From: Closterium sp. NIES-65
Taxonomy: Eukaryota; Streptophyta; Zygnematophyceae; Desmidiales; Closteriaceae
DNA length: 64,000 nucleotides
NCBI GenBank assembly: GCA_948144175.1
Contig: CANXME010002107.1
Span: 1,438,501 to 1,502,500, forward strand
Reading direction: 5' to 3'
The notes under the pieces are model-generated. The model was not told the origin of the DNA. It searched no databases and was given only the letters and a program-made list of their open reading frames with translations. Numbering within the stretch: position 1 is the first letter of the stretch; each line of letters begins with the position of its first letter. Below are positions 2,990 through 56,203 of this stretch, one piece after another. Position numbers and translations under genes: made by a program.

Positions 2990-3528
2990 TGTTGGGCTGA
3001 GGATTTCAGCCTTAGGATCTTTACAGAGAATAGGCTAGTAGGTGTCAGAATATTATTCTTATGTTCTAGCCTGTAGTGGGGTGCTCTATAGCGAGTACAA
3101 CCCTTCTAGGGTTTGCTATTTGTATCCCCATTTCTGCTAGTTCATTCCTCATTCTTTCTTCAAACTTTGTCAGTAGGTGCTACAGTAGCACAGTGGAAGT
3201 CTTTTGAGTGAATGTACTTGTGCTGGTATGTGAGAACAAGTAATTGATTAAAGCAAAGAGCATACAGGAATATATAGGAAAGATAGATTACAGGAAGCGG
3301 TTATGTTTATCGAGACGCGTAACGCTTCGACTATCGAGGTAGTTACTGTTCACTGAAGCGTCGCTTGCTGTTACGTAACCTCCAGGCGGTTACAGCTCGC
3401 AACCTCCAGTTGCGGTTTGATGTGGTACGCGCCTTTTTCCGACTTCATACCCCTTTTGTTGTGCTTCAGTATCGGGTGAGGTTCGATACTACAGAAACGC
3501 ACTAAGTCATGCGTTTATATTCCCAACA
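2990..3528 (-). repeat. Copia B LTR, left (3' LTR of copy 1), interrupted by a solo LTR
   Basis: The LTR bounds are tgttgggctg at 2990 and attcccaaca at 3528. Without the 130-bp insertion and its duplicated gtagg it is 404 bp, the same length as the other two B LTRs. The coding frame of B copy 1 ends about 20 bases inside this LTR. Confidence 0.92.
3043..3172 (+). repeat. Solo LTR of the short-LTR copia family (same as element G)
   Basis: This 130-bp sequence begins tgtcagaata and ends ctttgtca. It closely matches the 130-bp LTRs at 56594-56723 and 57871-58000. It is flanked by gtagg at 3038-3042 and 3173-3177, a clean 5-bp target-site duplication. No internal region is present, so this is a solo LTR left by LTR-LTR recombination. 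It sits in the left B LTR only. Confidence 0.92.
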
Positions 3529-4309
3529 CTCCCCTTCGTTTCTGGAGTGTCGACGTGGTCAGCTTCGGTGACGTGGCCCAATCCAGTGAGCAGCATGCAG
3601 TACTCAAATTTCCCCTTTGGTAGCTTCTTGGTGAGACAATCTGCTGCCATCTCGGTGGTCGGGCAGTAGTCCAGCTGGAGTTTTCCCTTCTCAATTTCGT
3701 CTTTCACGAAGAAGTATCGCAGTGCGATATGCTTGGTTCTGTTGGCGAAGCCATTCTTGTTCGCGATCCGTATCGCGGACTGGTTGTCGCAGAAAAGCGA
3801 GAAGCTGGGTACTTTCGCAATTTTCGCTTCTTCCAGCAGTTCGCGCAGGTACAGACCTTCCTTGGTAGCGGTGCAGAGAGCAATATACTCTGCTTCAGCA
3901 GATGATAGTGCGACGAGTTCCTGCTTACTTGATTGCCAGGAGATAGTTCCGACGGGCTCGAGGCGGTAGATGTAGCCGGTGCGAGAGCGGCGATCGACAC
4001 GATCAGCAGCGTGATCAGCGTCGACGTAGCCGAGTAGTTTTAGGTCGCTCGTCGTGCTCTTGTGATGCGTTAAGCCAACTGTTGGCGTCGAGATGAAGTA
4101 GAGAAGGGCACGGTTGAGTTCCTTGAGGTGACGTTGTTCTGGGCGCTTGAGGTAGGTCGCTAGCTGGCTGGCGCTGTAGGATAAGTCCGGTCGGCACGTA
4201 ACGGCGGCAAAGAGTAGGCAGCCCAGTTTCTGTTGATATTCCTGGATTCCGGCAGACGGCAGTAGGTTGGTTTCTTCAGTTGGGTCGGGCGATAGGTGAC
4301 TGTAGGGTG
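3507..4309 (-). CDS. Copia B copy 1, C-terminal part of pol (reverse transcriptase end and RNase H)
   Basis: This is the downstream part of the B copy 1 polyprotein, cut off from its upstream part by copia C1. It contains the end of the reverse transcriptase region and RNase H, with a YVDADHAAD segment, LSSAEAEYIAL, CDNQSAIRIANK and ADCLTKKL, all typical of Ty1/copia RNase H. It ends about 20 bases inside the 3' LTR. The purine tract used for plus-strand priming lies within the coding end. The frame is open throughout. Confidence 0.9.
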
Positions 4310-4436
4310 TGTCAAACATTCTATATATTGTTGTAGTTGTTTAGGCTACAGTGGGTTAGCCTATAGGGGGTACACACTTCTAGGTTTCCATATTTGTACT
4401 CATTTCATTCTTAGTCATTCCATTCCTTGTTCAACA
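4310..4436 (+). repeat. C1 5' LTR
   Basis: This is a 127-bp LTR from tgtcaaacat to cttgttcaaca, identical as read to the 3' LTR at 11669-11795 and to both C2 LTRs. The initiator-Met-type PBS starts at 4437. Confidence 0.95.
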
Positions 4437-4599
4437 TGGTATAGAGCAGGTCCTTCCTAGGACCGTTTTTCCTAAGGGCCCACCACTACCTACCTGCCTA
4501 TCTGCCTACCTGCCCTAGGGCGCCTCGACGTTCACGCCTCTAGAGGCCCTGTAGGCCCCGCGCTGTTGCACCTAGAGGCCCCGAATCGGCCCCGCGCCT

Positions 4600-5215
4600 A
4601 ACCCTAACGGCCCGCGTCGGCCCCGAGCTCGTCCCCTAGAGGCCCGCGTCGGCCCCGCGCCTACCCTAGAGGCCCGCGTCGGCCCCGAGCCTACCCCTAG
4701 AGGCCCGCGACGGCCCCGTCCTTACCCCTAGAGGCCCGCGACGGCCCCGTCCCTACCCCTAGAGGCCCGCGACGGCCCCGATCCTACCCCTAGAGGCCCG
4801 CGTCGGCCCCCGTCCCTACCCCTAGAGGCCCGCGTCGGCCCCGTCCCTACCCCTAACAGCCCGCGTCGGCCCCGTCCCTACCCCTTACAGCCCGCGTCGG
4901 CCCCGTCCCTACCCCTTTCGGACCGCGTCGGCCCCGATCCTACCCCTTTCGGCCCGCGTCGGCCCCGTCCCCAACCCCACCCGCTCCCCGCGCTCCCCTT
5001 AGCCGCCTCGAACGGCCCCACCTAGACCGCACCGCCCGCACCGAACAGCCCGGCCCTAACGGAACCGAGCCGCCCGAACCGAGCCGCCCGACCCGAGCCG
5101 CGCCGCCCGACCCGAGTCGCCCGAACCGAGCCGCGCCGCCCGACCCGAGCCGCGCCGCCCTACCTATACCGAGCCGCGCCGCCCTACCTGTACCGAGCCG
5201 CGCCGCCCTACCTAC
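4600..5215 (+). repeat. GC-rich minisatellites in the C1 leader
   Basis: Two tandem blocks fill the untranslated leader. From about 4600 to 4970 a unit of roughly 34 bp repeats about ten times (core agaggcccgcgtcggcccc, then cctacccc). From about 5040 to 5215 a shorter unit based on gagccgcgccgcccgaccc repeats. The same blocks recur in the C2 leader at about 25140-25725. They carry no coding signal. Confidence 0.8.
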
Positions 5216-8200
5216 CTACTGCTCCTACTGCTTTTACTACTGCTGCTACCATGGCTAGCCCTCCAGTGCTAGCCTTCGATGCTGAGGGGCGCCCAGTGAA
5301 GTTCGACACCTGGCTTGATGACCTACACCTCTTCCTACAGCTCACTGCCAAGGAAGACATCTCGCTGTACGATCACGCCCTAGGCCACGCTACTGCTCCT
5401 GCTGCTACTGCCAACAGCACTGCTCACTCACAGTGGCAGACTCGTGACGCCCATGCTCGCTTCGCTATCCGCAACTCTCTGCCGATAGATGAGCGCGAGC
5501 ACTTTGGGCAGCACAAGACTGCACAGGCACTGTACACTGCTGTCGTTGCCCGCTACTCCTCACCGGCCTCTGCTGCTCTAGGCCGTCTCTCTCTTCCCTA
5601 CCTGTTCCCCGACTTAGCTTCCTTTCACACTGTCGCTGACCTCATTACCCACCTCCGCACTAGTGAGGCTCGCTTCCGCGCCGCTATGCCTGATGAGTTC
5701 CTCGCCACGAACCCACCCCCGCTCTGGATCACTCTCTACCACCTAGTCACGCGCCTCCCTGACTCGCTGCGCTCAGTCAGGGACCACTTCCTCGCTCGCT
5801 GCCCCACCGAGCTCACCATTGCCCTCCTCGAGAAGGAACTCCTTGCAGCCGAGACTAGCATAGTCGCTGTAGGTGCCTCTCGCGGTGACCCCCGCACCCC
5901 GTTCTTTGAGGGGTGTTCTCCCTCCCCCCTTCTTCCCTCTGTCGCCTCTGCTGCTGCTGTCGACCTCCTTGGTGCTGAGAAGGTCGGGACTGCGTCTGCT
6001 TCGGGCGGACGCCGCAGCGGCAAGGGCAAGGGGGGCAAGGGCGGTGGTGGTGACAGCGGGGGTGGCGGTGGTGGGGGAGGTGGTGGCGGGGGGAGTGGCG
6101 CGGGTGGGGGAGGTGGCAGCGGTGGTGGGGGTGGCGGCAGCGGCGGGGGAGGTGGCCGGGGCGGAGGAGGTAGTGGGGGTGGCGGTGGACGAGGCGGCGG
6201 CAGGGGTTGGGGTGGTCGAGGAGGTGGTGGCGGGAGTGGTGGGCGTGGCGGCACTGGCGGTGGCCAGGGACAGCAGCACACTCCCTCGCCCCAGGAGGTC
6301 CGTGAGTGGTACTCTCAGCACGGGGGGGGGGGGGGGGGGTGGCCTTAGCTGCACGTACGTCATTCGCACTGGTGACGGCACTGGCCAGCCGTGTGGGGGA
6401 CCGCACGCCACACAGCGTTGCTTCGCTCGTCTGAGCGACGCTTGGCGTGTTCAGTTCCCTCAGGCCACTGAGCTGCCCCGCTGGCTTGATCTCCTGAAGA
6501 AGGGGATTGATATCTATGCTCTAGATTTTGATGCTATTCTCTCTGCCATGTATGTGATGTCTACTAGTGGAGAGGGTTCTGAGTACCTGAGTGTCCCGCC
6601 CGACCCGGGCATTAGGACGAGTGCGTCTGCTGCTCCAGGTACCCACGTGTCTGCTACCCCAGGTGCTGGTGAGGCTGCTGCTCTAGGTGCGTGCGTGTCT
6701 GCCCCCCCTGGTACTGTGTCGACTGCAGCACTGCACACCTTCACGCTGGATTCAGGTGCCTCTCGCTGTTTCTTTCGTGACCGCACTGCCCATGAGCCCC
6801 TTGCTCGGCCAGTTGCTGTCTCCCTTGCTGACCCCTCTGGGGGTCCGGTCATTGCGACCTCCTCCACTGTCCTTCCCTGTCCTGCGGTCCCGTCGGGCAC
6901 ACTGTCAGGTCTCCACCTCCCCTCGTTCTCCACGAACTTGGTGGCAGGTTCTGCTCTCCAAGACGGGGGTGTTCACCAGTTCATCCCTGCCTACGAGCAT
7001 GTGACACACTGCATGTGTGCTCGTACGGGCCGCCACTTGGCTACCTTCACCCGGCAGCCGGGGTCGGACCTGTACACACTGACTACTGCCTCCCCTCAGG
7101 TCGCTGCGTCTGCGTCTGCGTTTGCGTCCGCGTCAGGTCAGCTGTCTGCCCCCTGCTCGTGTCGCTCTCTAGCGCACGAGACTGTCCTCTGGCACCACCG
7201 ACTTGGCCACCCGTCTATGCAGCGCCTTCGTGCCATGCACTCCCGGTACCTTGTCTCTGGTCTTCCCAGGGTTCTCCCTCCTCTCCCACCCTCGCCTGCT
7301 CCTCCCTGCCTTCCCTGTGTCGAGGGGCGGCAGCGCGCCGCTCCTCACTCCTCCTCGTTTCCCCCGACGACTGCTCCTTTGCAGACGCTCCACATGGACG
7401 TGTGGGGCCCAGCCCGCGTCCGTGGTCAGGGTCAGGAGAGGTACTTCCTGATCGTTGTTGACGACTACTCGCGCTACACCACGGTCTTCCCCTTGCGCAC
7501 CAAGGGTGAGGTCCCTGATGTTTTGATCCCTTGGATCCGCAGAGCTCGTCTCCAGCTCAGCGAGCGTTTCTGCTCGGACTTTCCTGTCCTGCGCTTGCAC
7601 TCTGACAGAGGTGGTGAGTTCTCCTCCGACCTCTTGGCAGCCTACTGTGCTGAGCACGGCATTGAGCAGTCGTTCACGCTTCCGGCCTCTCCACAACAGA
7701 ATGGGGTTGCGGAGCGCCGCATTGGCCTGGTCATGGAGGTCGCTCGTACCTCCTTGATCCATGCGGCTGCCCCCCATTTTCTGTGGCCGTTTGCGGTCCG
7801 GTACGCTGCGCATCAGCTCAACCTCTGGCCCCGTGTCTCCTTGCCGGAGACCTCGCCCACACTGCTGTGGACGGGGGAGGTTGGCGATGCGTCGCGTTTC
7901 CGGGTCTGGGGATCTCGAGCTTTTGTTCGCGATTCGTCTGCGGACAAGCTCTCCTCTCGTGCTGTTCCCTGCGTCTTCCTCGGCTTTGTTCCGGACGCGC
8001 CTGGTTGGCAGTTTTACCACGCCACCTCGCGCCGGGTCTTGCCCTCTCAGGACGTCACTTTTGACGAGTCTGTCCCCTACTACCGCCTCTTCCCCTACCG
8101 CACTGCCCCGCTCCCACCCCCGCCTCTCTTCCTCGCGCCAGGTGCTGCTGTCGTAGACCCCCTCCCCCCTCAGGGTGCCGCTCCCTCAGGTGTGTCTCAG

Positions 8201-8249
8201 GTAGACCCGGTCGAGCCTGTTGAGGTTGCTGTCGACTCTCGTCCTGCTG

Positions 8250-8500
8250 GGGGTGCTGAGCCTGGGGGTGCGGACGCTGGGGGTGCTGAGCCTAGGGGTG
8301 CGGACACTGGGGGTGCTGGGCCTGGGGGTGCGGACTCTGAGGGTGCTGAGCCTGGGGGTGCGGACTCTGGGGGTGCTGAGCCTGGGGGTGCGGACACTAG
8401 GGGTGCTGAGCCTGGGGGTGCTGTGCCTGGGGGTGCTGAGCCTGGGGGTCCGGTGACTGGGGGTGGTGAGCCTGGCGGTGCTGCGCCAGGGGGTCCTACG
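8250..8500 (+). repeat. 30-bp coding minisatellite in C1 (Gly-Gly-Ala-Glu-Pro type)
   Basis: A 10-residue unit of the type GGAEPGGADS repeats between integrase and reverse transcriptase. C1 has one more 30-bp unit here than C2 (about 28765-28980). That unit and a two-base microsatellite difference account for the whole length difference between the two C copies. Confidence 0.85.
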
Positions 8501-8707
8501 CCTGGACGAGATCTCTCCTCGGAGCAGTTGCGTGAGTGGTACTTACAGTACTGCAGCCTCCGGAGAGGTACCTCTGGGACCGGGCGCGCTACGGAGACTG
8601 GTGCTGGCACTTCTCCTTCTAGTCGGGAGCTCCCCTCTTGTGAGCGGATCCGTGAGTGGTACGAGCGCCGTTGCACACTTCGTAGTGGCGCGCCTCGTCT
8701 CACGGAC

Positions 8708-9175
8708 CCTGCTGCTGCTGGTGCTGCGGACCCGGGCGTTGGAGCTGCTGCTGGTGCTGCGGACCCGGGCGTTGGAGCTGCTGCTGGTGCTGCGAACCCG
8801 GGCGTTGGAGCTGCTGCTGGTGCTGAGGACCCGGGCGTTGGAGCTGCTGCTGGTACTGCGGACCCGGGCGTTGGAGCTGCTGCTGGTGCTGCGGACCCGG
8901 GCGTTGGAGCTGCTGCTGGTGCTGAGGACCCGGGCGTTGGAGCTGCTACTGGTACTGCGGACCCGGGCGTTGGAGCTGCTGCTGGTGCTGAGGACCCGGG
9001 CGTTGGAGCTGCTGCTGGTGCTGAGGACCCGGGCGGTGGAGCTGCTGCTGGTACTGCGGACCCGGGCGTTGGAGCTGCTGCTGGTGCTGAGGACCCGGGC
9101 GTTGGAGCTTTGACTGGTGCTGAGGACCCTGGTGTTGGAGTCCCTGCTGGTGCTGCGGACTCGGGAGTTGGTACT
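8708..9175 (+). repeat. 33-bp coding minisatellite in C1 (AAAGAADPGVG type)
   Basis: About fourteen copies of an 11-residue unit (AAAGAADPGVG with variants) lie just before reverse transcriptase. The same block occurs in C2 at about 29190-29655. Long open frames on other strands across this block are artefacts of the 33-bp period. Confidence 0.88.
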
Positions 9176-11668
9176 GCCGCTGGGGGCACTGGTGCTGTCC
9201 CTGCTGTGTCTGGAGTCGCCGCGCGCCCTCAGCCGTACTTCGTTCCGCTCCTTCAGCAGGTTCTTGGTCTCTCGCCTCCTCATGGTCCTCCCCCTCCTTT
9301 AGTGTGTCCGCAGCCTGTTCAGTCACTGCCTGCTCCTTCTCCTTACTCTAGTCCTACTGACGGTCTTACTGAGCGTCGTGAGCCTGCGTCTCGCCCTGCG
9401 TCGCCTGTCCGTCCTGCTAGCACTAGTGCTCGTAGTTCGCGTCCACGTCCTCCTCCTGCCCCTGGCACGCACCGGATGTCTCTGCGTCCTTCCACTGCTC
9501 CTCTGCGTGCCCCTTTGCCTTCTCCTCCTGCTTCCTCTCTTCCTGCTCTTGTCGACCCTACGTCGGACTCTCTTCGTGCTGCCAGTCCTACTGTCACGCG
9601 TCTCCTTGCTACTGCCGTCACTGACCCTTCCTTCGAGTCTTCTGCTGCGTCTGCCCTAGTTGTTGAGCTCGTCGACTTTGCTGCTCGCTATCGTCTAGAC
9701 TACGCTGCTCGTCTTGTCGCTGAGTCTGAGTCTGTCTGTCCTCCGTCCGTCGGGGGTGCGTGTGCCCTTGGCACGGACGTCCTTGAGGACAGGCAGGAGG
9801 AGTTTCAGTGCTTGGCTGCCGCTTCACCTCATCTCGCGTCTGTACTGCTAGCCCCTGAGGGAGACCCGGATGCACTAGACATCCCGACTCCGCGCTCTTA
9901 CGCGGAGGCGATAGAGGGTCCCTACTCCTCTCAGTGGCAGGCAGCTATGGATGCAGAGATGGCTTCCTGGAAGTCCACAGGCACCTACGTTGACGCTGTC
10001 CCCCCTCCTGGGGCGAACATCGTCAGTGGCATGTGGATCTTCAGGGTGAAGCGGCCGCCGGGTTCTCCGCCTGTCTTCAAGGCGCGTTACGTGGCTCGTG
10101 GCTGCAGTCAGCGGCAGGGAGTTGACTACTTTCAGACCTTCTCCCCCACCCCGAAGATGACCACCCTTCGGGTACTCCTGCACGTTGCTGCTCACCGGGA
10201 CTACGAGCTTCACTCTCTCGACTTCAGCACTGCTTTCTTGCAGGGCAGCCTGCACGAGGAGATCTGGCTGCGTCGCCCACCTGGCTTCACTGGGTCTTTC
10301 CCTCCTGGTACCCAGTGGAGTCTCCGGCGTCCAGTCTACGGTCTCCGCCAGGCGCCACGTGAGTGGCACGACACACTGAGGACTACGCTGGCGGCACTTG
10401 GGTTTGCTCCTTCTACTGCCAACCCGTCGCTGTTTCTGCGCACCGACACCTCTCTTCCGCCGTTCTACATCCTCGTGTACGTCGACGACTTGGTCTTTGC
10501 CACTGCTGACACTGCTGGACTCGCCTACGTGAAGTCCGAGCTGCAGAAGAGACACACGTGCACTGACCTGGGTGAACTGCGCAGCTACCTTGGCTTGCAG
10601 ATCACCCGGGACAGAGCACGCCGCACCATTACCCTGACTCAGTCACACATGGTGCAGCAGGTCCTTCAGCGCTTCGGCTTCACGTACTCCTCGCCTCAGG
10701 CCAGTCCTCTGTCTACTCGCCACTCGCTCTCAGCTCTGCCTTCGGATGAGTCCGTAGAGTCGAGTGGCCCGTACCCAGAGCTTGTTGGCTGTCTCATGTA
10801 CCTGATGACCTGCACACGACCTGACCTTGCATACCCTCTTAGCATTCTTGCGCGCTATGTTGCTCCTGGGAGACACCGACCAGAGCACATGGCTGCAGCG
10901 AAGAGGGTGTTGCGCTACTTGTGCAGTACGTCGGGCATGGGACTAGTGCTTGGATGGCGGAGTCCCGTGGTCCTCACTGGTCACGCGGACGCTTCTTGGG
11001 CTGACGACCAGGCTACGCAGCGGTCGTCACAGGGTTACACCTTCAGCCTTGGTTCCGGCTCTGTTTCGTGGCGGGCTACTCGCTCGTCTTCTGTTCTCGG
11101 CTCCAGTTGTGAGGCTGAGATCTACGCAGGGGCCATGGCTGCTCAGGAGCTTCGCTGGCTCACCTACCTACTGACCGACCTTGGAGAGCCGCCTCGTTCT
11201 CCTCCAGTCCTGTACGTTGACAACAAGGCCATGCTGGCCTTGTGTCGAGAGCAGAGACTGGAGCACAGAACAAAGCACATTGCTCTCCGCTACTTCCTTG
11301 CTCGTGAGCTACAGCAGCGTGGTCAGTTGCGACTTGCGTACGTGGCCTCTGAGGCCAACACTGCTGATGTTTTCACCAAGGCACTTGCGCCTTGTGATCA
11401 TCAGCGCTGCTGTACCCAGCTGTGTCTTGTGTCTGTCTTGCCTCACTTGCTCTCCTCTTGACCCTCTTTGTACTGTTACATATATATATCACTGCTCTTG
11501 CTTGTTTAGTCTTATATATATATATGTACTCCTGCATGTGAACTGGCCTTGTGGCCTTGAACTTGTGCTCGGATTGTGTGGTGACATTGTGATCCACCCT
11601 GAGCTTGCTTTGCTTTACTTGACTGGTCTTGTGACCCCTAGTTCTCCCCCACTTCGCCTATGGGGGTG

Positions 11669-11795
11669 TGTCAAACATTCTATATATTGTTGTAGTTGTT
11701 TAGGCTACAGTGGGTTAGCCTATAGGGGGTACACACTTCTAGGTTTCCATATTTGTACTCATTTCATTCTTAGTCATTCCATTCCTTGTTCAACA
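11669..11795 (+). repeat. C1 3' LTR
   Basis: This 127-bp LTR is identical as read to the 5' copy. The purine tract ctatgggggtg directly precedes it, and the target-site duplication gggtg directly follows it at 11796-11800. Confidence 0.95.
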
Positions 11796-14700
11796 GGGTG
11801 TTGGGACGTGCGTCGGTGTGATGCAGAAGCGTTCGGCGATAGTGCTTGCGTATTTTGAGGCGCTGAGACGAATGGCGTTGTCTTCGTCGAGGATGTTGAG
11901 CCCTAGGTACTGCGTGACGTTGGGTGAGACTGTGAGGGAGAGATCTGTCTGAAGCTCCCTTTCGAACCAGGTGACGATGGTGGTAGTTGACCCGATGTAG
12001 AGTAAATCGTCGACGTAGACGATTAGTAGGACGTAGTCGTTGTCGTAAGTGAGGCGATACATGCCCTGGTCATGGGGCAGTTGGTTGAATCCGATGCGTT
12101 TAAGTCGTGCGTGCAGGTACTGCTGCCAGAGCCGCGGTGCCTGCTTAATTCCGTATAGTGATTTAAGTAGTTGGCAGACGAGGGAAGGGTCGTCGACGAA
12201 CCCGTGGGGCTGTTCGACGAAGATTTCAGCGTCGACTGGGGCGTACAGAAAAGCGTTGGCGACGTCGATTTGTCGGAGTGGGCGGCGACGTGAGGCGGCG
12301 ATGGCGAGGAGTATACGCAGGGAAGTATGTCGACTGACTGGTGCAAAAGTTTCAGTGAAGTCGCGACCATACTCTTGGTCGAATCCGCGGTCGACCCATC
12401 GAGCTTTAAATCGTTCGATGGTTCCGTCGGAGTTGGTTTTGATCCGGAATACCCATTTTCCGGAGAGAATGGGTCTGTCTTGTGCGAGTGATGCAGGGAC
12501 GATCTTCCAGGTGTTGCGGTCTGAGAGCGCTTTTAACTCCTTTTCCATGGCTTCGCGCCATTTTTCTTTGTGTTCCCCCCCCAGAGCCTGCTTGACAGAG
12601 CGAGCCTCTTCAGGTGGCGACGAAGGCCCGTGCACTGCAGCGATGAGTCCCAGGACTTGGAGTCCGCTGGGAGTGTGACGGTTCAGCAAGGGATCCTCGA
12701 GATAGACTGCTTCGTCTCCCGCTTCAGGATCAGGTGCGAATCCGGGGCCGTATCGTTCAGAGATGTCGGTGTTGACGGGTTGGGGTGTTACGTAACCAGT
12801 GTCGACGAAATGGTAGTAGACGTCGGCATTGTTGCTGTCGCGAGGATTTTCCTCGTCCATGGGGATTGGGACGGAGCAGTAGGGAAGGGGTCCAGCAGCT
12901 TCGGAGGCGCCGTCGACGTTTTCTTCTTCCCAGTCAGCAGCGTCGGAGGGTGAAGCGAAGGCTCGGGAACCAGGAAATCCGCCGGTGGGGTCGACGTGGC
13001 GTGCGATGTTGTCCAGGTAATGGTTGAGGGTGAGTCGCTCGTAGAAGATAACGTCACGTGCTGCTACTGTTTCCTTTGTGTGGACGTCGAAGATTCGCCA
13101 GGCTTCGTAATGTTTTGCCAGCCCGAGGTGTAGACCCCACTGTGCACGTTGTGAAAATCTCCCTGCGCGTGCAGTGTGTGGGCGGTACTGTACCATACAC
13201 CCAAAAACTCGTAACATTTTTGTGTTGCCCAGCTTCCCAGTCCACAACAGGTGCGGAGATGCGTTGTTGGGCAGTGAAGACGAGGACAGCAAGTTGTGCA
13301 GGAGGACAGCGTGGTCCATCGCTGCTGGCCATTCTGAGTTGGGCAGTCGAGTTCCACGTAGCAGCTTTCGCATGGTTGTCTGCAGGGTCCTGTTCATCCT
13401 TTCTGCCACACCCTGCTGTTGGTGAGCGTAAGGAAGAGAGATGAGGCGTTTGATGCCTCTTTCTGCCAAGAACTGTTTGAAGCGATGTGACTGGTATTCC
13501 ATCGCGCCATCTGACTGAAAACTCTTCAGTTTTACTCCCGATTCTCTTTCAGCGACAGGTAGCCAGGCTGTGAAGGCTTCTAGAGCCATGTCTCGTGACG
13601 GTAAGTTGACGTGCCAGACATATCGCGTTGCGGCGTCGATGAAGGTGATGACGTAGTTCAGATCTTCACGTCCTTCAATTCGAGGTATGTATAGTATGTC
13701 GCTGTAGACTTTCTCGAGTGGTTGATAAACGGGGGCGCTCGGATTGTGGTGTGACGGGAACGGTTGGTGAGGCAGATCTGCTTCCGGGCAGATGAAGCAG
13801 GTGCCGCGTGGTCGTTCGAGTTCACGTCCGTTGGGAAGAAGTAGGGCGTTCTTGTCTAACACTCCGGCTCGTATTGTGTTGTAAAGTGTTTTGTTTCCAG
13901 GATGTCCAAGACGTTGATGCCAGATCTCTTCGGAGGCGCTGTGACCGACGGAGCGTTGATAGAAGTTTGCGTTAGCAAAAAAGGCGGCGTGTGTTGCTGC
14001 ACTTCGATGAACGGCGTGTGGTGCTGGCGTTAACTTTTGGGCGGCTGTCGGTGGCGTGTCGATGATGAGAGGTGGTGGTGCGACGGAGGGACCGGGCTGT
14101 GGAGTTTCGGAAGGTTGTTCCGTGACGACGGTTGGTTCTTCAACTGCAGGTTCGGTGGTTGTTGGTGCTGTGACGGGTGCAGTTGTTGTTTCGATGACGG
14201 GTGCTGACTCAGGTGTTGTTGCTTGTGTTTGCAGGACGGCAAGCGCGTTGGTGCGTTCAGCTTCGGGAATGGTACGAGAGTACCAGAAGCCTTTAGGACT
14301 GAAGTTCGGGTCGAGGTCTGGCGGATGCGTCCAAGGTGCGAGAGCGACTATGCCGTCGCTGTCTGCGGTGCCTTTGTCGGGGACGAAATCGAGGACGAAC
14401 ACGTCATCTTGTTGGATTGCGCGGCCGATGAAGACCCCCCCTTTTCCGTGGTAAAGACGGATTTCCCGGGCGTCGGAGTCACACTCCAGGTGAATGCCTT
14501 TCGACATGAGTTGGCTGACGCTCAGTAAGTTGAAGCCGAGGTTGTCGACGACGAGTACTTTGTTTAGTTGAAGGATAACGTTTGTTTCGTTTGACTGAAG
14601 CTCCACGACTCCTTGTTTGTTGGTGCGCAGGTTTTCGTTGTTGGCGACGGTGATGATGACGTCTCGCGGAAGACGTCGTTCGCGCTGAAGAAATCGTGAT

Positions 14701-16187
14701 GAAGAGCACATGTGATGACCGCAACAGCTGTCGAAGAACCATGTGTCTTGTCCGGTGGGTGCACTGTTCGCGATGGCGGCGTACGTTGGATTCACGTTAA
14801 GGGACGACGGTGGTGGTGACGGTTGCTCATCAGGACTGTAAGTCGGTGGAGAGCCGGTAATACACGAGTCGATGTTTGACTCTGTTGTTCGTGCCATGGC
14901 GACGATTCTTGATGTCTGTGCAGGTCCCGAAGTGGAAGTTGACGGTCGCGTTGAAGTAGTCGTTGAGGCGGTAGCGGGTCGTTGTTGAGTTGACGCGATG
15001 TGGGGAGGCGCGGGTCGCAGAGGACGAGAGAATGGTGCTGGTTGTCGTTGTTGCTGAGGGCAGTTGAAGTGTGTGTGTCCTGAAGTCCGACACAGATGAC
15101 AATAAGGAGGTACGTGTCCTCGATTTTGGTAACGTGGCTGTCGTCGATTGGTGTAAAGAACGACCGGTTGATGATGCCTTTTGTTGTTGCGTTCTTCGAA
15201 CAGGTCCATTTCCTGCTGCTCGGCGTGAAGTTCGGCGCAGAGATGCATTTCGGAGAGTCGACCGTGAGCGCGAAGAAGTGAACGGGTGGTGCGCCATTGA
15301 GGTCCAAGGCCAGCAAGAACGACGGTTACGAAAGCTTCTTCAGATAAGTTTCCTCCGCAGCGAATAAGTCTGTCGCGTAGTCCTTGACAGCGACTGATGT
15401 AAGGCATGGCCTTTTCTCCAGGTTGCATTTGAACTGTTGTCAGTTGTGCCATGAGTCGGCTTTGTGTAACGCTGTCGGATGCTTGATGAATGCTTCGCAG
15501 ATGTTGATAGGCGAGTTCCGCGGAGTTTGCGTAGTTCCGGTAGGCGCGGATGCTTTGTTGTTCGTTCGGCGACAGGTTTCGGAGAAGAACGGTGTAAGCC
15601 ATCAGGGAGTGATACGTATAATTTTCTTTGTCTTTGTCTTCGCCGTTGTGTGGATATGGCCAGGTACCGTTGAAGAATCCAAGAAGATTCGCGCCTTCCA
15701 TCAGGAGTTCAAACTCGAAGCTCCAAGAGTAGAAGTCATTCCCGTTGAATGGTGTGGATGTGTGCAGTCGCAGGATGTTGTTGAACTGTGCTTGTACTTG
15801 CAGGACTTCTTCGGTGTCTCGTTTGATGGCGGGAAGAGGGGTCGCTGGATGGCGAGGCGGCATGAACGTGAAGGAACCAGGTGAGACCGAATTTGGTGTT
15901 TGTTGATTATATCGTCCGAACGATGAGTTGTCAATACTCATTGGTGCCGCTCCGTTGTTTACGCTGTTGCTGTTTGCAGGTTGCGAGGACTGCTGCTGCG
16001 ACATGAAGTTGAAGAACTCCTCCATTAAGCTTGGGTTGAAGATTGTTGGCGGCGCTACTGGCGCTTGAGTAGAACGTTCCGTCGCTTCCGGCGTTAATCC
16101 GGGCGTTGTTCCTCCTTCGGTCTGCAACTCGGAGACCGGGGGTAGAGTAGATCCCGTAGATGATCTTCTTTCTTTGCCACTTGCCAT
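11796..16187 (-). CDS. Copia B copy 1, gag to reverse transcriptase
   Basis: This is the upstream part of B copy 1. I take the start at MASGKERR (16187) because element A has the matching MSARKERS; an upstream in-frame ATG at 16214 is possible. In order it shows gag, the zinc knuckle CHLCRTSGHTHFNC, a protease-like WFFDSCCGHHM, integrase (WHQRLGHPGNKT, YSDILYIPRI, FQSDGAMEYQ, HQQQGVAERMNRTL), and reverse transcriptase (KARWVDRGFDQEYG, YGIKQAPRLWQQYL, LLIVYVDDLLYIG). The frame is open to the C1 junction and resumes at 4309. Apart from that insertion the copy looks whole. Confidence 0.92.
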
Positions 16188-16294
16188 GTCTTGCCTTTCT
16201 TGAATGAAGATCAAACTTCTTGGTTGCTTGCAGATCGGTAGCCTGGAAGAGGCTTAGTGACGAGAGCCTTTGTTCTCTGACTGCTCTCATACCA

Positions 16295-16698
16295 TGTTGG
16301 GCTGAGGATTTCAGCCTTAGGATCTTTACAGAGAATAGGCTAGTAGGTGCTAGAGTAGCACAGCGGAAGTCTTTTGAGTGAATGTACTTGTGCTGGTATG
16401 TGAGAACAAGTAATTGATTAAAGCAAAGAGCATACAGGAATATATAGGAAAGATAGATTACAGGAAGCGGTTATGTTTATCGAGACGCGTAACGCTTCGA
16501 CTATCGAGGTAGTTACTGTTCACTGAAGCGTCGCTTGCTGTTACGTAACCTCCAGGCGGTTACAGCTCGCAACCTCCAGTTGCGGTTTGATGTGGTACGC
16601 GCCTTTTTCCGACTTCATACCCCTTTTGTTGTGCTTCAGTATCGGGTGAGGTTCGATACTATAGAAACGCACTAAGTCATGCGTTTATATTCCCAACA
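16295..16698 (-). repeat. Copia B LTR, middle: 5' LTR of copy 1 and 3' LTR of copy 2
   Basis: This 404-bp LTR is shared by the two B copies. The PBS of copy 1 abuts its left side (minus-strand tggtatgagagcagtc), and the purine tract of copy 2 abuts its right side. At offsets 59 and 70 it matches the right LTR. At offset 276 it matches the left LTR instead. It has one private difference at offset 368. This is the mosaic expected of an LTR formed by crossover. Confidence 0.93.
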
Positions 16699-17606: not shown

Positions 17607-17638
17607 TGGTATAGAGCAGGTCCTTCCTAGGACCGTTT

Positions 17639-17770
17639 TCAGAAGAAGTGAACGAGAATGAATGAACTATGAATGAAGTGAGTACAAATATGAAACCCTA
17701 ATTGGGTTGTACCCCCTATAGTATACCCCACTATAGCCTACACAAATAAGTAAGCTATAATGTTCTGACA
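17639..17770 (-). repeat. Element E 3' LTR
   Basis: This 132-bp LTR differs from the 5' copy at two positions, one of them in its terminal dinucleotide. It is preceded by the target-site copy cgttt at 17634-17638. Confidence 0.92.
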
Positions 17771-23881: not shown

Positions 23882-23984
23882 TTGTAGCAGCTGACAGTCT
23901 CACCGGGCAGGAAGAGTCGGGTAGCACAGCGGCACAGCAACACGGCAGTACAGCAGCTGCGCCGGCCTAGGAGCAGTGGGAGCC

Positions 23985-24780
23985 CCACAGGAGCAGAAGA
24001 TCGGCTCCTCGGGCGGCTCGGGCGGCTCGGGCGGCTCGGGCGGCTCGGGCGGCGTGGGCGGCTCGGGCGGCTCGGGCGGCGTGGGCGGCTCGGGCGGCTC
24101 GGGCGGCTCGGGCGGCTCGGGCGGCTCGGGCGGCGTGGGCAGCTCGGGCGGCTCGGGCGGCGTGGGCGGCTCGGGCGGCTCGGGCGGCGTGGGCGTCTCG
24201 CGGGCGGCTCGCGGGCGGCTCGCGGGCGGCTCACAGGCGGTTCACGGGCAGCTGCACTGGCGGCCGCACGGGTAGGTGCACGGGCGGGTGCACGGGCGGG
24301 TGCACGGGCGGCCGCACGGGTAGGTGTACGGGCAGGTGCACGGGCGGGTACACGGGCGGGTGCACGGGCGGGCACACGGGCGGCTGCACGGGCTGCTCGT
24401 CGGGCGGCGCTAGGGCGGCGCGTGGGCGGCGCGTTGGGCAGCGCGACGGGCGGCGTTAGGGCGGGCAGCGGGCAGCGCTACGGGCGGCGCGTTGGGCAGC
24501 GCGACGGGCGGCACTAGGGCGGCTGCACGGGCAGCGCGACGGGCTGCGCTAGGGCGGCGCGTTGGGTGGCGCTAGGGCGGCGCGTCGGGCAGCGCGTCGG
24601 GCGGCGCTAGGCTGGCGCGTCGAGCGGCGCTAGGGCGGCGCTAAGGCAGCGCGTCGGGCAGCGCTGTGGGCGGCGCGTCGGGCGTCTAGCGCTAGAGCAG
24701 GCAGCGGACGGGCGCTAGGGCGCTAGGGGCGGCGCTCACGTTCGAGGGCGGGCGGTGCGCTAGCGGCTAGGGCAGAAAAA
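23985..24780 (-). repeat. GC-rich simple and minisatellite repeats in the E leader
   Basis: On the plus strand a 9-bp unit (ggcggctcg or ggcggcgtg) repeats from about 24005 to 24235, followed by longer units based on gggcggcgcg and gggcagcgcg to about 24740. This is the untranslated leader of E between PBS and gag, equivalent to the repetitive leader in C but of different sequence. Apparent glycine/serine and arginine/alanine open frames here are repeat artefacts. Confidence 0.8.
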
Positions 24781-24842
24781 AAAGACGTTTCGAGGTGGTG
24801 GGCCCTAAGCAGAGGTCCCACAGGGGAACCTGCTCGATACCA

Positions 24843-24974
24843 TGAGAAGAAGTGAACGAGAATGAATGAACTATGAATGAAGTGAGTACAAATATGAAAC
24901 CCTAATTGGGTTGTACCCCCTATGGTATACCCCACTATAGCCTACACAAATAAGTAAGCTATAATGTTCTGACA
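24843..24974 (-). repeat. Element E 5' LTR
   Basis: This is a 132-bp LTR, tgagaagaag to gttctgaca on the plus strand. It is followed by the target-site copy cgttt (24975-24979) and by resumption of the C2 leader. Confidence 0.93.
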
Positions 24975-24979
24975 CGTTT

Positions 24980-28700: not shown

Positions 28701-31700
28701 GTGTGTCTCAGGTAGACCCGGTCGAGCCTGTTGAGGTTGCTGTCGACTCTCGTCCTGCTGGGGGTGCTGAGCCTGGGGGTGCGGACGCTGGGGGTGCTGA
28801 GCCTGGGGGTGCGGACACTGGGGGTGCTGGGCCTGGGGGTGCGGACTCTGGGGGTGCTGAGCCTGGGGGTGCGGACACTAGGGGTGCTGAGCCTGGGGGT
28901 GCTGTGCCTGGGGGTGCTGAGCCTGGGGGTCCGGTGACTGGGGGTGCTGAGCCTGGCGGTGCTGCGCCAGGGGGTCCTACGCCTGGACGAGATCTCTCCT
29001 CGGAGCAGTTGCGTGAGTGGTAATTACAGTACTGCAGCCTCCGGAGAGGTACCTCTGGGACCAGGCGCGCTACGGAGACTGGTGCTGGCACTTCTCCTTC
29101 TAGTCGGGAGCTCCCCTCTCGTGAGCGGATCCGTGAGTGGTACGAGCGCCGTTGCACACTTCGTAGTGGCGCGCCTCGTCTCACGGACCCTGCTGCTGCT
29201 GGTGCTGCGGACCCGGGCGTTGGAGCTGCCGCTGGTGCTGCGGACCCGGGCGTTGGAGCTGCTGCTGGTGCTGCAAACCCGGGCGTTGGAGCTGCTGCTG
29301 GTGCTGAGGACCCGGGCGTTGGAGCTGCTGCTGGTACTGCGGACCCGGGCGTTGGAGCTGCTGCTGGTGCTGCGGACCCGGGCGTTGGAGCTGCTGCTGG
29401 TGCTGAGGACCCGGGCGTTGGAGCTGCTACTGGTACTGCGGACCCGGGCGTTGGAGCTGCTGCTGGTGCTGAGGACCCGGGCGTTGGAGCTGCTGCTGGT
29501 GCTGAGGACCCAGGCGATGGAGCTGCTGCTGGTACTGCGGACCCGGGCGTTGGAGCTGCTGCTGGTGCTGAGGACCCGGGCGTTGGAGCTCTGACTGGTG
29601 CTGAGGACCCTAGTGTTGGAGTCCCTGCTGGTGCTGCGGACTCGGGAGTTGGTACTGCCGCTGGGGGCACTGGTGCTGTCCCTGCTGTGTCTGGAGTCGC
29701 CGCGCGCCCTCAGCCGTACTTCGTTCCGCTCCTTCAGCAGGTTCTTGGTCTCTCGCCTCCTCCTGGTCCTCCCCCTCCTTTAGTGTGTCCGCAGCCTGTT
29801 CAGTCACTGCCTGCTCCTTCTCCTTACTCTGGTCCTACTGACGGTCTTACTGAGCGTCGTGAGCCTGCGTCTCACCCTGCGTCGCCTGTCCGTCCTGCTA
29901 GCACTAGTGCTCGTAGTTCGCGTCCACGTCCTCCTCCTGCCCCTGGCACGCACCGGATGTCTCTGCGTCCTTCCACTGCTTCTCTGCGTGCCCCTTTGCC
30001 TTCTCCTCTTGCTTCCTCTCTTCCTGCTCTTGTCGACCCTACGTCGGACTCTCTTCGTGCTGCCAGTCCTACTGTCACGCGTCTCCTTGCTACTGCCGTC
30101 ACTGACCCTTCCTTCGAGTCTTCTGCTGCGTCTGCCCTAGTTGCTGAGCTCGTCGACTTTGCTGCTCGCTGTCGTCTAGACTACGCAGCTCGTCTTGTCG
30201 CTGAGTCCGAGTCTGTCTGTCCTCCGTCCGTCGGAGCTGCGTGTGCCCTTGGCACGGACGTCCTTGAGGACAGGCAGGAGGAGTTTCAGTGCTTGGCTGC
30301 CGCTTCACCTCATCTCGCGTCTGTACTGCTAGCCCCTGAGGGAGACCCGGATGCACTAGACATCCCGACTCCGCGCTCTTACGCGGAGGCGATAGAGGGT
30401 CCCTACTCCTCTCAGTGGCAGGCAGCTATGGATGCAGAGATGGCTTCCTGGAAGTCCACAGGCACCTACGTTGACGCTGTCCCCCCTCCTGGGGTGAACA
30501 TCGTCAGTGGCATGTGGATCTTCAGGGTGAAGCGGCCGCCGGGTTCTCCGCCTGTCTTCAAGGCGCGTTACGTGGCTCGTGGCTTCAGTCAGCGGCAGGG
30601 AGTTGACTACTTTCAGACCTTCTCCCCCACCCCGAAGATGACCACTCTTCGGGTACTCCTGCACGTTGCTGCTCACCGGGACTACGAGCTTCACTCTCTC
30701 GACTTCAGCACTGCTTTCTTGCAGGGCAGCCTGCACGAGGAGATCTGGCTGCGTCGCCCACCTGGCTTCACTGGGTCTTTCCCTCCTGGTACCCAGTGGA
30801 GTCTCCGGCGTCCAGTCTACGGTCTCCGCCAGGCGCCACGTGAGTGGCACGACACACTGAGGACTACGCTGGCGGCACTTGGGTTTGCTCCTTCTACTGC
30901 CAACCCGTCGCTGTTTCTGCGCACCGACACCTCTCTTCCGCCGTTCTACATCCTCGTGTACGTCGACGACTTGGTCTTTGCCACTGCTGACACTGCTGGA
31001 CTCGCCTACGTGAAGTCTGAGCTGCAGAAGAGACACACGTGCACTGACCTGGGTGAACTGCGCAGCTACCTTGGCTTGCAGATCACCCGGGACAGAGCAC
31101 GCCGCACCATTACCCTGACTCAGTCACACATGGTGCAGCAGGTCCTTCAGCGCTTCGGCTTCACGTACTCCTCGCCTCAGGCCAGTCCTCTGTCTACTCG
31201 CCACTCGCTCTCAGCTCTGCCTTCGGATGAGTCCGTAGAGTCGAGTGGCCCGTACCCAGAGCTTGTTGGCTGTCTCATGTACCTGATGACCTGCACACGA
31301 CCTGACCTTGCATACCCTCTTAGCATTCTTGCGCGCTATGTTGCTCCTGGGAGACACCGACCAGAGCACATGGCTGCAGCGAAGAGGGTGTTGCGCTACT
31401 TGTGCAGTACGTCGGGCATGGGACTAGTGCTTGGAGGGCGGAGTCCCGTGGTCCTCACTGGTCACGCGGACGCTTCTTGGGCTGACGACCAGGCTACGCA
31501 GCGGTCGTCACAGGGTTACACCTTCAGCCTTGGTTCCGGCTCTGTTTCGTGGCGGGCTACTCGCTCGTCTTCTGTTCTCGGCTCCAGTTGTGAGGCTGAG
31601 ATCTACGCAGGGGCCATGGCTGCTCAGGAGCTTCGCTGGCTCACCTACCTACTGACCGACCTTGGAGAGCCGCCTCGTTCTCCTCCAGTCCTGTACGTTG

Positions 31701-31942
31701 ACAACAAGGCCATGCTGGCCTTGTGTCGAGAGCAGAGACTGGAGCACAGAACAAAGCACATTGCTCTCCGCTACTTCCTTGCTCGTGAGCTACAGCAGCG
31801 TGGTCAGTTGCGACTTGCGTACGTGGCCTCTGAGGCCAACACTGCTGATGTTTTCACCAAGGCACTTGCGCCTTGTGATCATCAGCGCTGCTGTACCCAG
31901 CTGTGTCTTGTGTCTGTCTTGCCTCACTTGCTCTCCTCTTGA
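25762..31942 (+). pseudogene. C2 gag-pol region (Ty1/copia, fossil)
   Basis: The layout is the same as C1: gag (MASPPVLAFDAEGRPVKF), glycine-rich tail, protease (FTLDSGASRCFF), integrase (WHHRLGQPSV, LHSDRGGEFSS, PQQNGVAERR), the 30-bp and 33-bp repeat blocks, reverse transcriptase (YGLRQAPREWHDTL, ILVYVDDLVFA) and RNase H (HRTKHIALRYFLARE). It differs from C1 by scattered substitutions and one repeat unit. About two breaks are visible. C1 and C2 descend from one insertion copied with the B tandem, so their differences date the duplication and not two transposition events. Confidence 0.87.
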
Positions 31943-32151
31943 CCCTCTTTGTACTGTTACATATATATATATCACTGCTCTTGCTTGTTTAGTCTTATAT
32001 ATATATATGTACTCCTGCATGTGAACTGGCCTTGTGGCCTTGAACTTGTGCTCGGATTGTGTGGTGACATTGTGATCCACCCTGAGCTTGCTTTGCTTTA
32101 CTTGACTGGTCTTGTGACCCCTAGTTCTCCCCCACTTCGCCTATGGGGGTG

Positions 32152-32278
32152 TGTCAAACATTCTATATATTGTTGTAGTTGTTTAGGCTACAGTGGGTTA
32201 GCCTATAGGGGGTACACACTTCTAGGTTTCCATATTTGTACTCATTTCATTCTTAGTCATTCCATTCCTTGTTCAACA
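32152..32278 (+). repeat. C2 3' LTR
   Basis: This 127-bp LTR is identical as read to the other C LTRs. It is followed by the target-site copy gggtg at 32279-32283, after which the B copy 2 reading frame resumes. Confidence 0.94.
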
Positions 32279-35200
32279 GGGTGTTGGGACGTGCGTCGGT
32301 GTGATGCAGAAGCGTTCGGCGATAGTGCTTGCGTATTTTGAGGCGCTGAGACGAATGGCGTTGTCTTCGTCGAGGATGTTGAGCCCTAGGTACTGCGTGA
32401 CGTTGGGTGAGACTGTGAGGGAGAGATCTGTCTGAAGCTCCCTTTCGAACCAGGTGACGATGGTGGTAGTTGACCCGATGTAGAGTAAATCGTCGACGTA
32501 GACGATTAGTAGGACGTAGTCGTTGTCGTAAGTGAGGCGATACATGCCCTGGTCATGGGGCAGTTGGTTGAATCCGATGCGTTTAAGTCGTGCGTGCAGG
32601 TACTGCTGCCAGAGCCGCGGTGCCTGCTTAATTCCGTATAGTGATTTAAGTAGTTGGCAGACGAGGGAAGGGTCGTCGACGAACCCGTGGGGCTGTTCGA
32701 CGAAGATTTCAGCGTCGACTGGGGCGTACAGAAAAGCGTTGGCGACGTCGATTTGTCGGAGTGGGCGGCGACGTGAGGCGGCGATGGCGAGGAGTATACG
32801 CAGGGAAGTATGTCGACTGACTGGTGCAAAAGTTTCAGTGAAGTCGCGACCATACTCTTGGTCGAATCCGCGGTCGACCCATCGAGCTTTAAATCGTTCG
32901 ATGGTTCCGTCGGAGTTGGTTTTGATCTGGAATACCCATTTTCCGGAGAGAATGGGTCTGTCTTGTGCGAGTGATGCAGGGACGATCTTCCAGGTGTTGC
33001 GGTCTGAGAGCGCTTTTAACTCCTTTTCCATGGCTTCGCGCCATTTTTCTTTGTGTTCCCCCCCCAGAGCCTGCTTGACAGAGCGAGCCTCTTCAGGTGG
33101 CGACGAAGGCCCGTGCACTGCAGCGATGAGTCCCAGGACTTGGAGTCCGCTGGGAGTGTGACGGTTCAGCAAGGGATCCTCGAGATAGACTGCTTCGTCT
33201 CCCGCTTCAGGATCAGGTGCGAATCCGGGGCCGTATCGTTCAGAGATGTCGGTGTTGACGGGTTGGGGTGTTACGTAACCAGTGTCGACGAAATGGTAGT
33301 AGACGTCGGCATTGTTGCTGTCGCGAGGATTTTCCTCGTCCATGGGGATTGGGACGGAGCAGTAGGGAAGGGGTCCAGCAGCTTCGGAGGCGCCGTCGAC
33401 GTTTTCTTCTTCCCAGTCAGCAGCGTCGGAGGGTGAAGCGAAGGCTCGGGAACCAGGAAATCCGCCGGTGGGGTCGACGTGGCGTGCGATGTTGTCCAGG
33501 TAATGGTTGAGGGTGAGTCGCTCGTAGAAGATAACGTCACGTGCTGCTACTGTTTCCTTTGTGTGGACGTCGAAGATTCGCCAGGCTTCGTAATGTTTTG
33601 CCAGCCCGAGGTGTAGACCCCACTGTGCACGTTGCGAAAATCTCCCTGCGCGTGCAGTGTGTGGGCGGTACTGTACCATACACCCAAAAACTCGTAACAT
33701 TTTTGTGTTGCCCAGCTTCCCAGTCCACAACAGGTGCGGAGATGCGTTGTTGGGCAGTGAAGACGAGGACAGCAAGTTGTGCAGGAGGACAGCGTGGTCC
33801 ATCGCTGCTGGCCATTCTGAGTTGGGCAGTCGAGTTCCACGTAGCAGCTTTCGCATGGTTGTCTGCAGGGTCCTGTTCATCCTTTCTGCCACACCCTGCT
33901 GTTGGTGAGCGTAAGGAAGAGAGATGAGGCGTTTGATGCCTCTTTCTGCCAAGAACTGTTTGAAGCGATGTGACTGGTATTCCATCGCGCCATCTGACTG
34001 AAAACTCTTCAGTTTTACTCCCGATTCTCTTTCAGCGACAGGTAGCCAGGCTGTGAAGGCTTCTAGAGCCATGTCTCGTGACGGTAAGTTGACGTGCCAG
34101 ACATATCGCGTTGCGGCGTCGATGAAGGTGATGACGTAGTTCAGATCTTCACGTCCTTCAATTCGAGGTATGTATAGTATGTCGCTGTAGACTTTCTCGA
34201 GTGGTTGATAAACGGGGGCGCTCGGATTGTGGTGTGACGGGAACGGTTGGTGAGGCAGATCTGCTTTCGGGCAGATGAAGCAGGTGCCGCGTGGTCGTTC
34301 GAGTTCACGTCCGTTGGGAAGAAGTAGGGCGTTCTTGTCTAACACTCCGGCTCGTATTGTGTTGTAAAGTGTTTTGTTTCCAGGATGTCCAAGACGTTGA
34401 TGCCAGATGTCTTCGGAGGCGCTGTGACCGACGGAGCGTTGATAGAAGTTTGCGTTAGCGAAAAAGGCGGCGTGTGTTGCTGCACTTCGATGAACGGCGC
34501 GTGGTGCTGGCGTTAACTGTTGGGCGGCTGTCGGTGGCGTGTCGATGATGAGAGGTGGTGGTGCGACGGAGGGACCGGGCTGTGGAGTTTCGGAAGGTTG
34601 TTCCGTGACGACGGTTGGTTCTTCAACTGCAGGTTCGTTGGTTGTTGGTGCTGTGACGGGTGCAGTTGTTGTTTCGATGACGGGTGCTGACTCAGGTGTT
34701 GTTGCTTGTGTTTGCAGGACGGCAAGCGCGTTGGTGCGTTCAGCTTCGGGAATGGTACGAGAGTACCAAAAGCCTTTAGGACTGAAGTTCGGGTCGAGGT
34801 CTGGCGGATGCGTCCAAGGTGCGAGAGCGACTATGCCGTCGCTGTCTGCGGTGCCTTTGTCGGGGACGAAATCGAGGACGAACACGTCATCTTGTTGGAT
34901 TGCGCGGCCGATGAAGACCCCCCCTTTTCCGTGGTAAAGACGGATTTCCCGGGCGTCGGAGTCACACTCCAGGTGAATGCCTTTCGACATGAGTTGGCTG
35001 ACGCTCAGTAAGTTGAAGCCGAGGTTGTCGACGACGAGTACTTTGTTTAGTTGAAGGATAACGTTTGTTTCGTTTGACTGAAGCTCCACGACTCCTTGTT
35101 TGTTGGTGCGCAGGTTTTCGTTGTTGGCGACGGTGATGATGACGTCTCGCGGAAGACGTCGTTCGCGCTGAAGAAATCGTGATGAAGAGCACATGTGATG

Positions 35201-36670
35201 ACCGCAACAGCTGTCGAGGAACCATGTGTCTGGTCCGGTGGGTGCACTGTTCGCGATGGCGGCGTACGTTGGATTCACGTTAAGGGACGACGGTGGTGGT
35301 GACGGTTGCTCATCAGGACTGTAAGTCGGTGGAGAGCCGGTAATACACGAGTCGATGTTTGACTCTGTTGTTCGTGCCATGGCGACGATTCTTGATGTCT
35401 GTGCAGGTCCCGAAGTGGAAGTTGACGGTCGCGTTGAAGTAGTCGTTGAGGCGGTAGCGGGTCGTTGTTGAGTTGACGCGATGTGGGGAGGCGCGGGTCG
35501 CAGAGGACGAGAGAATGGTGCTGGTTGTCGTTGTTGCTGAGGGCAGTTGAAGCGTGTGTGTCCTGAAGTCCGACACAGATGACAATAAGGAGGTACGTGT
35601 CCTCGATTTTGGTAACGTGGCTGTCGTCGATTGGTGTAAAGAACGACCGGTTGATGATGCCTTTTGTTAATGCGTTCTTCGAACAGGTCCATTTCCTGCT
35701 GCTCGGCATGAAGTTCGGCGCAGAGATGCATTTCGGAGAGTCGACCGTGAGCGCGAAGAAGTGAACGGGTGGTGCGCCATTGAGGTCCAAGGCCAGCAAG
35801 AACGACGGTTACGAAAGCTTCTTCAGATAAGTTTCCTCCGCAGCGAATAAGTCTGTCGCGTAGTCCTTGACAGCGACTGATGTAAGGCATGGCCTTTTCT
35901 CCAGGTTGCATTTGAACTGTTGTCAGTTGTGCCATGAGTCGGCTTTGTGTAACGCTGTCGGATGCTTGATGAATGCTTCGCAGATGTTGATAGGCGAGTT
36001 CCGCGGAGTTTGCGTAGTTCCGGTGGGCGCGGATGCTTTGTTGTTCGTTCGGCGACAGGTTTCGGAGAAGAACGGTGTAAGCCATCAGGGAGTGATACGT
36101 ATAATTTTCTTTGTCTTTGTCTTCGCCGTTGTGTGGATATGGCCAGGTACCGTTGAAGAATCCAAGAAGATTCGCGCCTTCCATCAGGAGTTCAAACTCG
36201 AAGCTCCAAGAGTAGAAGTCATTCCCGTTGAATGGTGTGGATGTGTGCAGTCGCAGGATGTTGTTGAACTGTGCTTGTACTTGCAGGACTTCTTCGGTGT
36301 CTCGTTTGATGGCGGGAAGAGGGGTCGCTGGATGGCGAGGCGGCATGAACGTGAAGGAACCAGGTGAGACCGAATTTGGTGTTTGTTGATTATATCGTCC
36401 GAACGATGAGTTGTCAATACTCATTGGTGCCGCTCCGTTGTTTACGCTGTTGCTGTTTGCAGGTTGCGAGGACTGCTGCTGCGACATGAAGTTGAAGAAC
36501 TCCTCCATTAAGCTTGGGTTGAAGATTGTTGGCGGCGCTACTGGCGCTTGAGTAGAACGTTCCGTCGCTTCCGGCGTTAATCCGGGCGTTGTTCCTCCTT
36601 CGGTCTGCAACTCGGAGACCGGGGGTAGAGTAGATCCCGTAGATGATCTTCTTTCTTTGCCACTTGCCAT
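32279..36670 (-). CDS. Copia B copy 2, gag to reverse transcriptase
   Basis: This is the second copy of the B upstream coding part, starting at MASGKERR (36670). Domain order and motifs are the same as in 11796-16187: knuckle CHLCRTSGHTRFNC, protease-like WFLDSCCGHHM, integrase and reverse transcriptase with LLIVYVDDLLYIG. It differs from copy 1 by scattered substitutions. The frame is open to the C2 junction. Like copy 1 it looks whole apart from the insertion. Confidence 0.92.
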
Positions 36671-36777
36671 GTCTTGCCTTTCTTGAATGAAGATCAAACT
36701 TCTTGGTTGCTTGCAGATCGGTAGCCTGGAAGAGGCTTAGTGACGAGAGCCTTTGTTCTCTGACTGCTCTCATACCA

Positions 36778-37181
36778 TGTTGGGCTGAGGATTTCAGCCT
36801 TAGGATCTTTACAGAGAATAGGCTAGTAGGTGCTAGAGTAGCACAGCGGAAGTCTTTTGAGTGAATGTACTTGTGCTGGTATGTGAGAACAAGTAATTGA
36901 TTAAAGCAAAGAGCATACAGGAATATATAGGAAAGATAGATTACAGGAAGCGGTTATGTTTATCGAGACGCGTAACGCTTCGACTATCGAGGTAGTTACT
37001 GTTCACTGAAGCGTCGCTTGCTGTTACGTAACCTCCAGGCGGTTACAGCTCGTAACCTCCAGTTGCGGTTTGATGTGGTACGCGCCTTTTTCCGACTTCA
37101 TACCCCTTTTGTTGTGCTTCAGTATCGGGTGAGGTTCGATACTACAGAAACGCACTAAGTCATGCGTTTATATTCCCAACA
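36778..37181 (-). repeat. Copia B LTR, right (5' LTR of copy 2)
   Basis: This is a 404-bp LTR from tgttgggctg to attcccaaca. The PBS of copy 2 abuts its left side. The target-site copy ctggt follows at 37182-37186, after which the gag start of element A resumes. Confidence 0.94.
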
Positions 37182-56198: not shown

Positions 56199-56203
56199 GT
56201 TCA

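Follow-up and report, generated by a model that had tools for sequence, protein, structure and literature searches.

The window, meaning the whole 64,000-nucleotide stretch of Closterium sp. NIES-65 DNA that was analysed, contains a copia element, B, arranged on the minus strand as LTR-internal-LTR-internal-LTR, and the best account of this array, judged from its sequence, is that an unequal LTR-LTR exchange probably doubled B after a second element, C, had inserted into it. The layout is real in the assembled sequence, as seen by self-comparison, by the motifs at the element ends and by alignment of the LTRs and segments, and our statements about the chromosome are based on that one assembled sequence. 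Also observed there are the nesting of elements A, B, C and D, all the target-site duplications (TSDs) described below and both copies of C at one site.

The middle LTR (16295-16698) and the right LTR (36778-37181) of B are each 404 bp long and lie, like the interrupted left LTR (2990-3528), on the minus strand, with TGTTGGG...CCCAACA termini on all three. The left LTR is 539 bp rather than 404 bp long because an E-family solo LTR of 130 bp (3043-3172, plus strand; 86-87% identical to the LTRs of element E) sits inside it together with its own GTAGG duplication (3038-3042 and 3173-3177). One CTGGT pair, at 2985-2989 and 37182-37186, bounds the array, whereas target duplications are absent from the flanks of the middle LTR; on its left stands the primer-site side, TACCA, as at the right LTR, and on its right CTCCC, as at the left LTR. 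The repeat unit of B starts and stops at LTR edges. Three same-strand LTRs, two internal regions, a single TSD pair and a middle LTR lacking a TSD are the features of a three-LTR tandem and are all present, as are the layout and lone CTGGT pair described by the initial annotation. Internal region 1 (3529-16294, minus strand) is 12,766 bp long and holds a nested C; internal region 2 (16699-36777, minus strand) is longer, at 20,079 bp, because its copy of C carries an extra element, D.

The gag-pol open reading frame (ORF) of B (11790-16214, minus strand) encodes 1474 aa, its 3' end being truncated by C, with gag at residues 175-335, the integrase core at 831-929 and RVT_2 at 1234-1468. Integrase upstream of reverse transcriptase within one ORF, a copia gag, TG...CA LTRs and the 5-bp target duplication CTGGT are all as expected for Ty1/copia. 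When relatives of one 406-aa piece of the B reverse transcriptase were sought, 15 stretches in genome_contigs matched the pattern and none was confirmed, and none was found in viral_contigs.

The host into which B inserted is element A, also on the minus strand. Its left part (1-2989) is truncated by the window start, and its remainder (37187-37785) comprises leader, primer-site sequence (37339-37350) and the LTR of A (37351-37785). Element A is a copia related to B, with 70-71% identity within the BLAST-aligned parts (1-1672 against 13092-14793, and 2066-2637 against 15181-15752), and B was inserted in its leader. When the flanks of A were joined and aligned to the leader of B itself, the two sequences stayed in register across the joint, with 524 of 821 sites equal, in an alignment that is loose and has gaps near the joint; the right flank of A gave 80 matches to the B leader, compared with a mean of 57 and a maximum of 71 in 100 shuffles.

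Both internal regions of B hold copia C on the plus strand. Copy 1 (C1; 4310-11795, with LTRs at 4310-4436 and 11669-11795) lies in internal region 1, is flanked by the TSD GGGTG (4305-4309 and 11796-11800) and has an open ORF at 5873-11461. Copy 2 (C2; 17480-32278) lies in internal region 2, is split by D and has its ORF broken by a premature stop. The four C LTRs, of 127 bp each, are identical. Minisatellites occur inside the C coding frame, at 8247-8505 and 8711-9183 and at their counterparts in C2, with 15/30-bp and 33-bp units, and C1 and C2 differ in length by 30 bp within the first of these (8247-8505). Element D, a copia related to C (17639-24974, minus strand), is present in C2 only, within the TSD CGTTT (17634-17638 and 24975-24979), and C1 carries the undivided D target site. 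Read on its own strand, D starts with TG and has GA rather than CA at its 3' end, despite the perfect CGTTT duplication.

The insertions of C1 and C2 are at the identical base and on the same strand, with the same GGGTG duplication, within both B internals, which suggests that the B that was doubled already held C; the earlier dating of the doubling to after the C insertion is thus most likely right. Taken together, the one TSD pair, the LTR-sized overlap and the same-site C make LTR-LTR exchange after the C insertion the best account. Element C, with its site and TSD, is common to both internals, as an exchange predicts for changes that preceded it, and some of the rival explanations considered below expect likewise. 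The E-family solo LTR points independently to recombination between LTRs in this part of the sequence.

Under the proposed mechanism, B would have entered the leader of A once, giving the CTGGT pair, and C would then have entered B, giving the GGGTG pair. The right LTR on one chromatid would have paired with the left LTR on a sister or homologue, and a crossover within the 404-bp LTR would have yielded one product carrying B(C) twice, with three LTRs. Subsequently D would have entered C2, unless one of the homologues carried it already, and both copies would have decayed. The left LTR would also have received an E-family element, whose reduction to a solo LTR may be earlier or later than the doubling. 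The exchange itself, its position within the LTR and the sister or homologue partner are what we infer from the array. The probable order of events is A, B, C and then doubling. Element D is later than C and, unless it was allelic, later than the doubling as well; the solo LTR is datable only as later than B.

Of the 12,736 aligned sites of the two internals, 12,658 were identical, which is beyond chance, with 78 differing (0.61%). Differences numbered 54 in 7,465 sites between C1 and C2 and 24 in 5,271 sites between the two B parts (Fisher p = 0.065, C higher), and, as the C copies are not less divergent than the B parts, this speaks against a subsequent transfer of C from one unit to the other. 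Using D or A as outgroup, 50 of the 78 differing sites could be polarised; an outgroup base was lacking at 21 and agreed with neither copy at 7. Derived states fell in copy 1 at 19 of the polarised sites and in copy 2 at 31 (p = 0.12), so that both copies have aged, although single polarities are unsure, both outgroups being distant (local identity 0.48 to 1.0 near the sites). The differences were spread roughly evenly over codon positions (12/19/16 in the C ORF and 4/6/6 in the B ORF), and the decay thus looks neutral.

The differences were patchy along the internals, with a variance/mean of 3.15 in 1-kb windows that none of 5,000 permutations matched, and this persisted when five minisatellite stretches were removed (68 sites, variance/mean 3.07, p = 0.001) and when the right B part was taken by itself (p = 0.025). 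The three segments also differed in rate (p = 0.013). Within stretches chosen post hoc, divergence was 0.00% at 5603-6675 and 15543-16294, 0.10% at 10166-13151 and 1.29% at 6676-10165. The longest substitution-free run (10956-12444 against 31437-32927, p = 0.005; it holds one 2-base indel) is possibly a gene conversion tract or a haplotype structure. Such patchiness is not what one clean duplication with even decay afterwards would predict. The pattern suggests that a further process was at work, for which gene conversion from one tandem copy to the other, a pair of parental haplotypes or an uneven mutation rate would each suffice. Potential conversion was predicted for 25% of LTR pairs across fifteen plant species in the accessible text of one survey (PMC7251063). 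A form of the exchange that we regard as unlikely is that it joined homologous chromosomes and not sisters, making the two internals former alleles now on one chromosome. Were this true, the patchy divergence would preserve a former haplotype structure, and D might have been an allele-specific insertion that preceded the exchange.

Patchy divergence is also what alleles of unequal coalescence depth would produce, and it keeps alive the explanation that the array is an assembly join, through the shared LTR, of two haplotypes, one with B(C) and one with B(C with D), in a diploid or dikaryotic organism. Such a join would yield the identical layout of three LTRs and one TSD, and the copies differ by 0.61% plus D, as alleles might. 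However, outside the array and the nested elements the longest self-match of at least 98% in the window is 143 bp, so that false duplication is not general in the window, and the resolution within the contig of a 12-kb repeat at 99% identity would suggest that long reads were used. We hold a haplotype join to be quite improbable as the source of the array.

Very unlikely, in our estimate, is an origin from retrotransposition or excision DNA, either as a tandem cDNA that entered in a single event or as a one-LTR B(C) circle recombined into a resident LTR. The four LTR point differences described below can all be later private changes, as expected from a single tandem insertion, and the available text of PMC11899658 leaves both recombination and complex insertion open for rice tandems and mentions integrase-independent tandem formation in yeast. 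Against this, the shared nested C argues that B did not arrive as a ready-made tandem: a B bearing the 7.5-kb antisense C would presumably have had to be transcribed and copied whole, and a ready-made tandem with later copying of C predicts that C1 and C2 should be closer to each other than the two B parts, which was not seen. The re-entry of a circle through homologous recombination is compatible with these observations. Three further candidates were rejected, namely two independent B insertions (the middle LTR has no TSD), entry of C into one site twice (same base, strand and TSD) and, as unlikely, post-doubling conversion of C across the copies (C is no less divergent than the B parts).

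With an LTR-LTR exchange after the C insertion as the preferred reading, we considered whether the crossover can be placed within the LTR, as had been claimed from a mosaic middle LTR. Counts of LTR differences were made with the insertion in the left LTR placed by its GTAGG duplication and the stretch after the insertion compared separately; the left LTR ahead of the solo-LTR insertion has zero differences from the other B LTRs. Four point differences were found among the three LTRs, at offsets 59, 70, 276 and 368, the odd LTR being the left at 59 and 70, the right at 276 and the middle at 368. The bases listed by the initial annotation at offsets 59 and 70 (middle equal to right) and 276 (middle equal to left) are thus seen in the base-level alignment, but its list was incomplete, offset 368 having been overlooked. 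Its proposal of an unequal crossover between a right and a left LTR is still the favoured account of the structure, but the mosaic pattern used to place the exchange at 70-276 carries little weight. Three sequences alone are unable to show a mosaic, because each site with two states sets a single sequence apart from the other two, and what counts is new states held in common. The mosaic order lies within chance: with two left-private sites and one right-private site the favourable order arises one third of the time, which is arithmetic and not a test.

The divergence of the internals predicts 3.7 private changes among the three LTRs after the doubling, and 4 were observed; between the left and right LTRs 2.5 differences are expected under zero earlier divergence and 3 were observed. 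At the mean rate, a mosaic model, with earlier LTR divergence and one crossover, raised the likelihood by no more than 1.7-fold, or 2.9-fold counting the solo LTR. With copy divergence raised from 0.36 to 1.0%, the gain fell from 4.4 to 1.0 (11.9 to 1.2 counting the solo LTR), and, 0.36% being the divergence of the right B part, the ratios of 4.4 and 11.9 presuppose an equally low post-duplication rate near the LTRs. The LTR of A was used as a guide to polarity. It has the base of the middle and right LTRs at offset 70, so that the left base is derived and the other two share an old state only; at offset 368 the middle base is a new private state relative to it, and at offset 59 it gives no readable polarity. 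At offset 276 the LTR of A bears the base of the right LTR, and the base of the left and middle LTRs could be a shared new state, a weak polarity given that this LTR is too diverged to decide a single site. A mosaic middle LTR is therefore allowed by the sequences and not demonstrated, and we consider it doubtful that it is a true mosaic with the crossover fixed between offsets 70 and 276. No paper was found in a literature search for tandem elements with a mosaic middle LTR.

Further features were recorded in the rest of the window. Another copia-like element lies at 49436-56209, with terminal direct repeats of ~421 bp that are 94% identical; its interior encodes integrase and SH3-like domains, distributed over two distinct frames. 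Element E (56594-58000) is 1.4 kb long, with 130-bp LTRs ~98% identical to each other and related to the LTRs of C and D, the TSD GTGTA and a longest listed ORF of 183 aa in the region; it looks like a short, non-autonomous LTR element. Two ORFs with SET domains, at 45429-46580 (minus strand) and 59934-60848 (plus strand), are in opposite orientation and ~83% identical in DNA, and a comparison of one of them with solved structures matched 53 sequences. An ORF at 41144-42439 encodes a transposase with DDE_Tnp_4 / Plant_tran domains, which we take to be as in Harbinger-type DNA transposons. The window gave 0 tRNA genes with ARAGORN and 0 Rfam matches at the gathering threshold.

Three-LTR arrays are already documented in rice, Arabidopsis and human, and the kind is thus known. 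In yeast, the Ty1 multimers are recombination-formed tandems that share LTRs, as the B array does, and they arise by cDNA entering resident elements without integrase. The Arabidopsis cases (PMC5379124, as far as its accessible text goes) are 10 elements with three LTRs and two internals, like the B array, found alongside 883 solo LTRs; 3 of the 10 carry nested insertions, described as younger, and that text makes no mention of an element at the same site in both internals. Rice TLI1 likewise consists of two elements sharing an internal LTR within one target duplication, but its LTRs are 85-89% identical and four long reads span it, as given in the available text of PMC11899658, whereas the B LTRs are ~99% identical and were read from the assembly. 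Human HERV-K108 also has three LTRs, two internals and the original TSD, a layout explained by recombination between two LTRs; it is an endogenous retrovirus, unlike the copia B, and a nested element is unmentioned for it in the available text (PMC3625200). The suggestion that such a product is rarer than the solo LTR fits Arabidopsis, with 10 against 883, but overstates the rarity, as 266 tandems were reported, with their mechanism left open, from a rice pangenome of 76 accessions (PMC11899658, available text).

The same source (PMC11899658, available text) states as open the question of whether in-place recombination or the insertion of ready-made tandems gives rise to tandem LTR retrotransposons. 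The B array comes with a warning, that a few differences among three LTRs are unable to prove a mosaic by themselves. It also offers a natural test, because where a third element lies at the same base in both internals the doubling should postdate that insertion, and the same check is applicable to tandems already catalogued.
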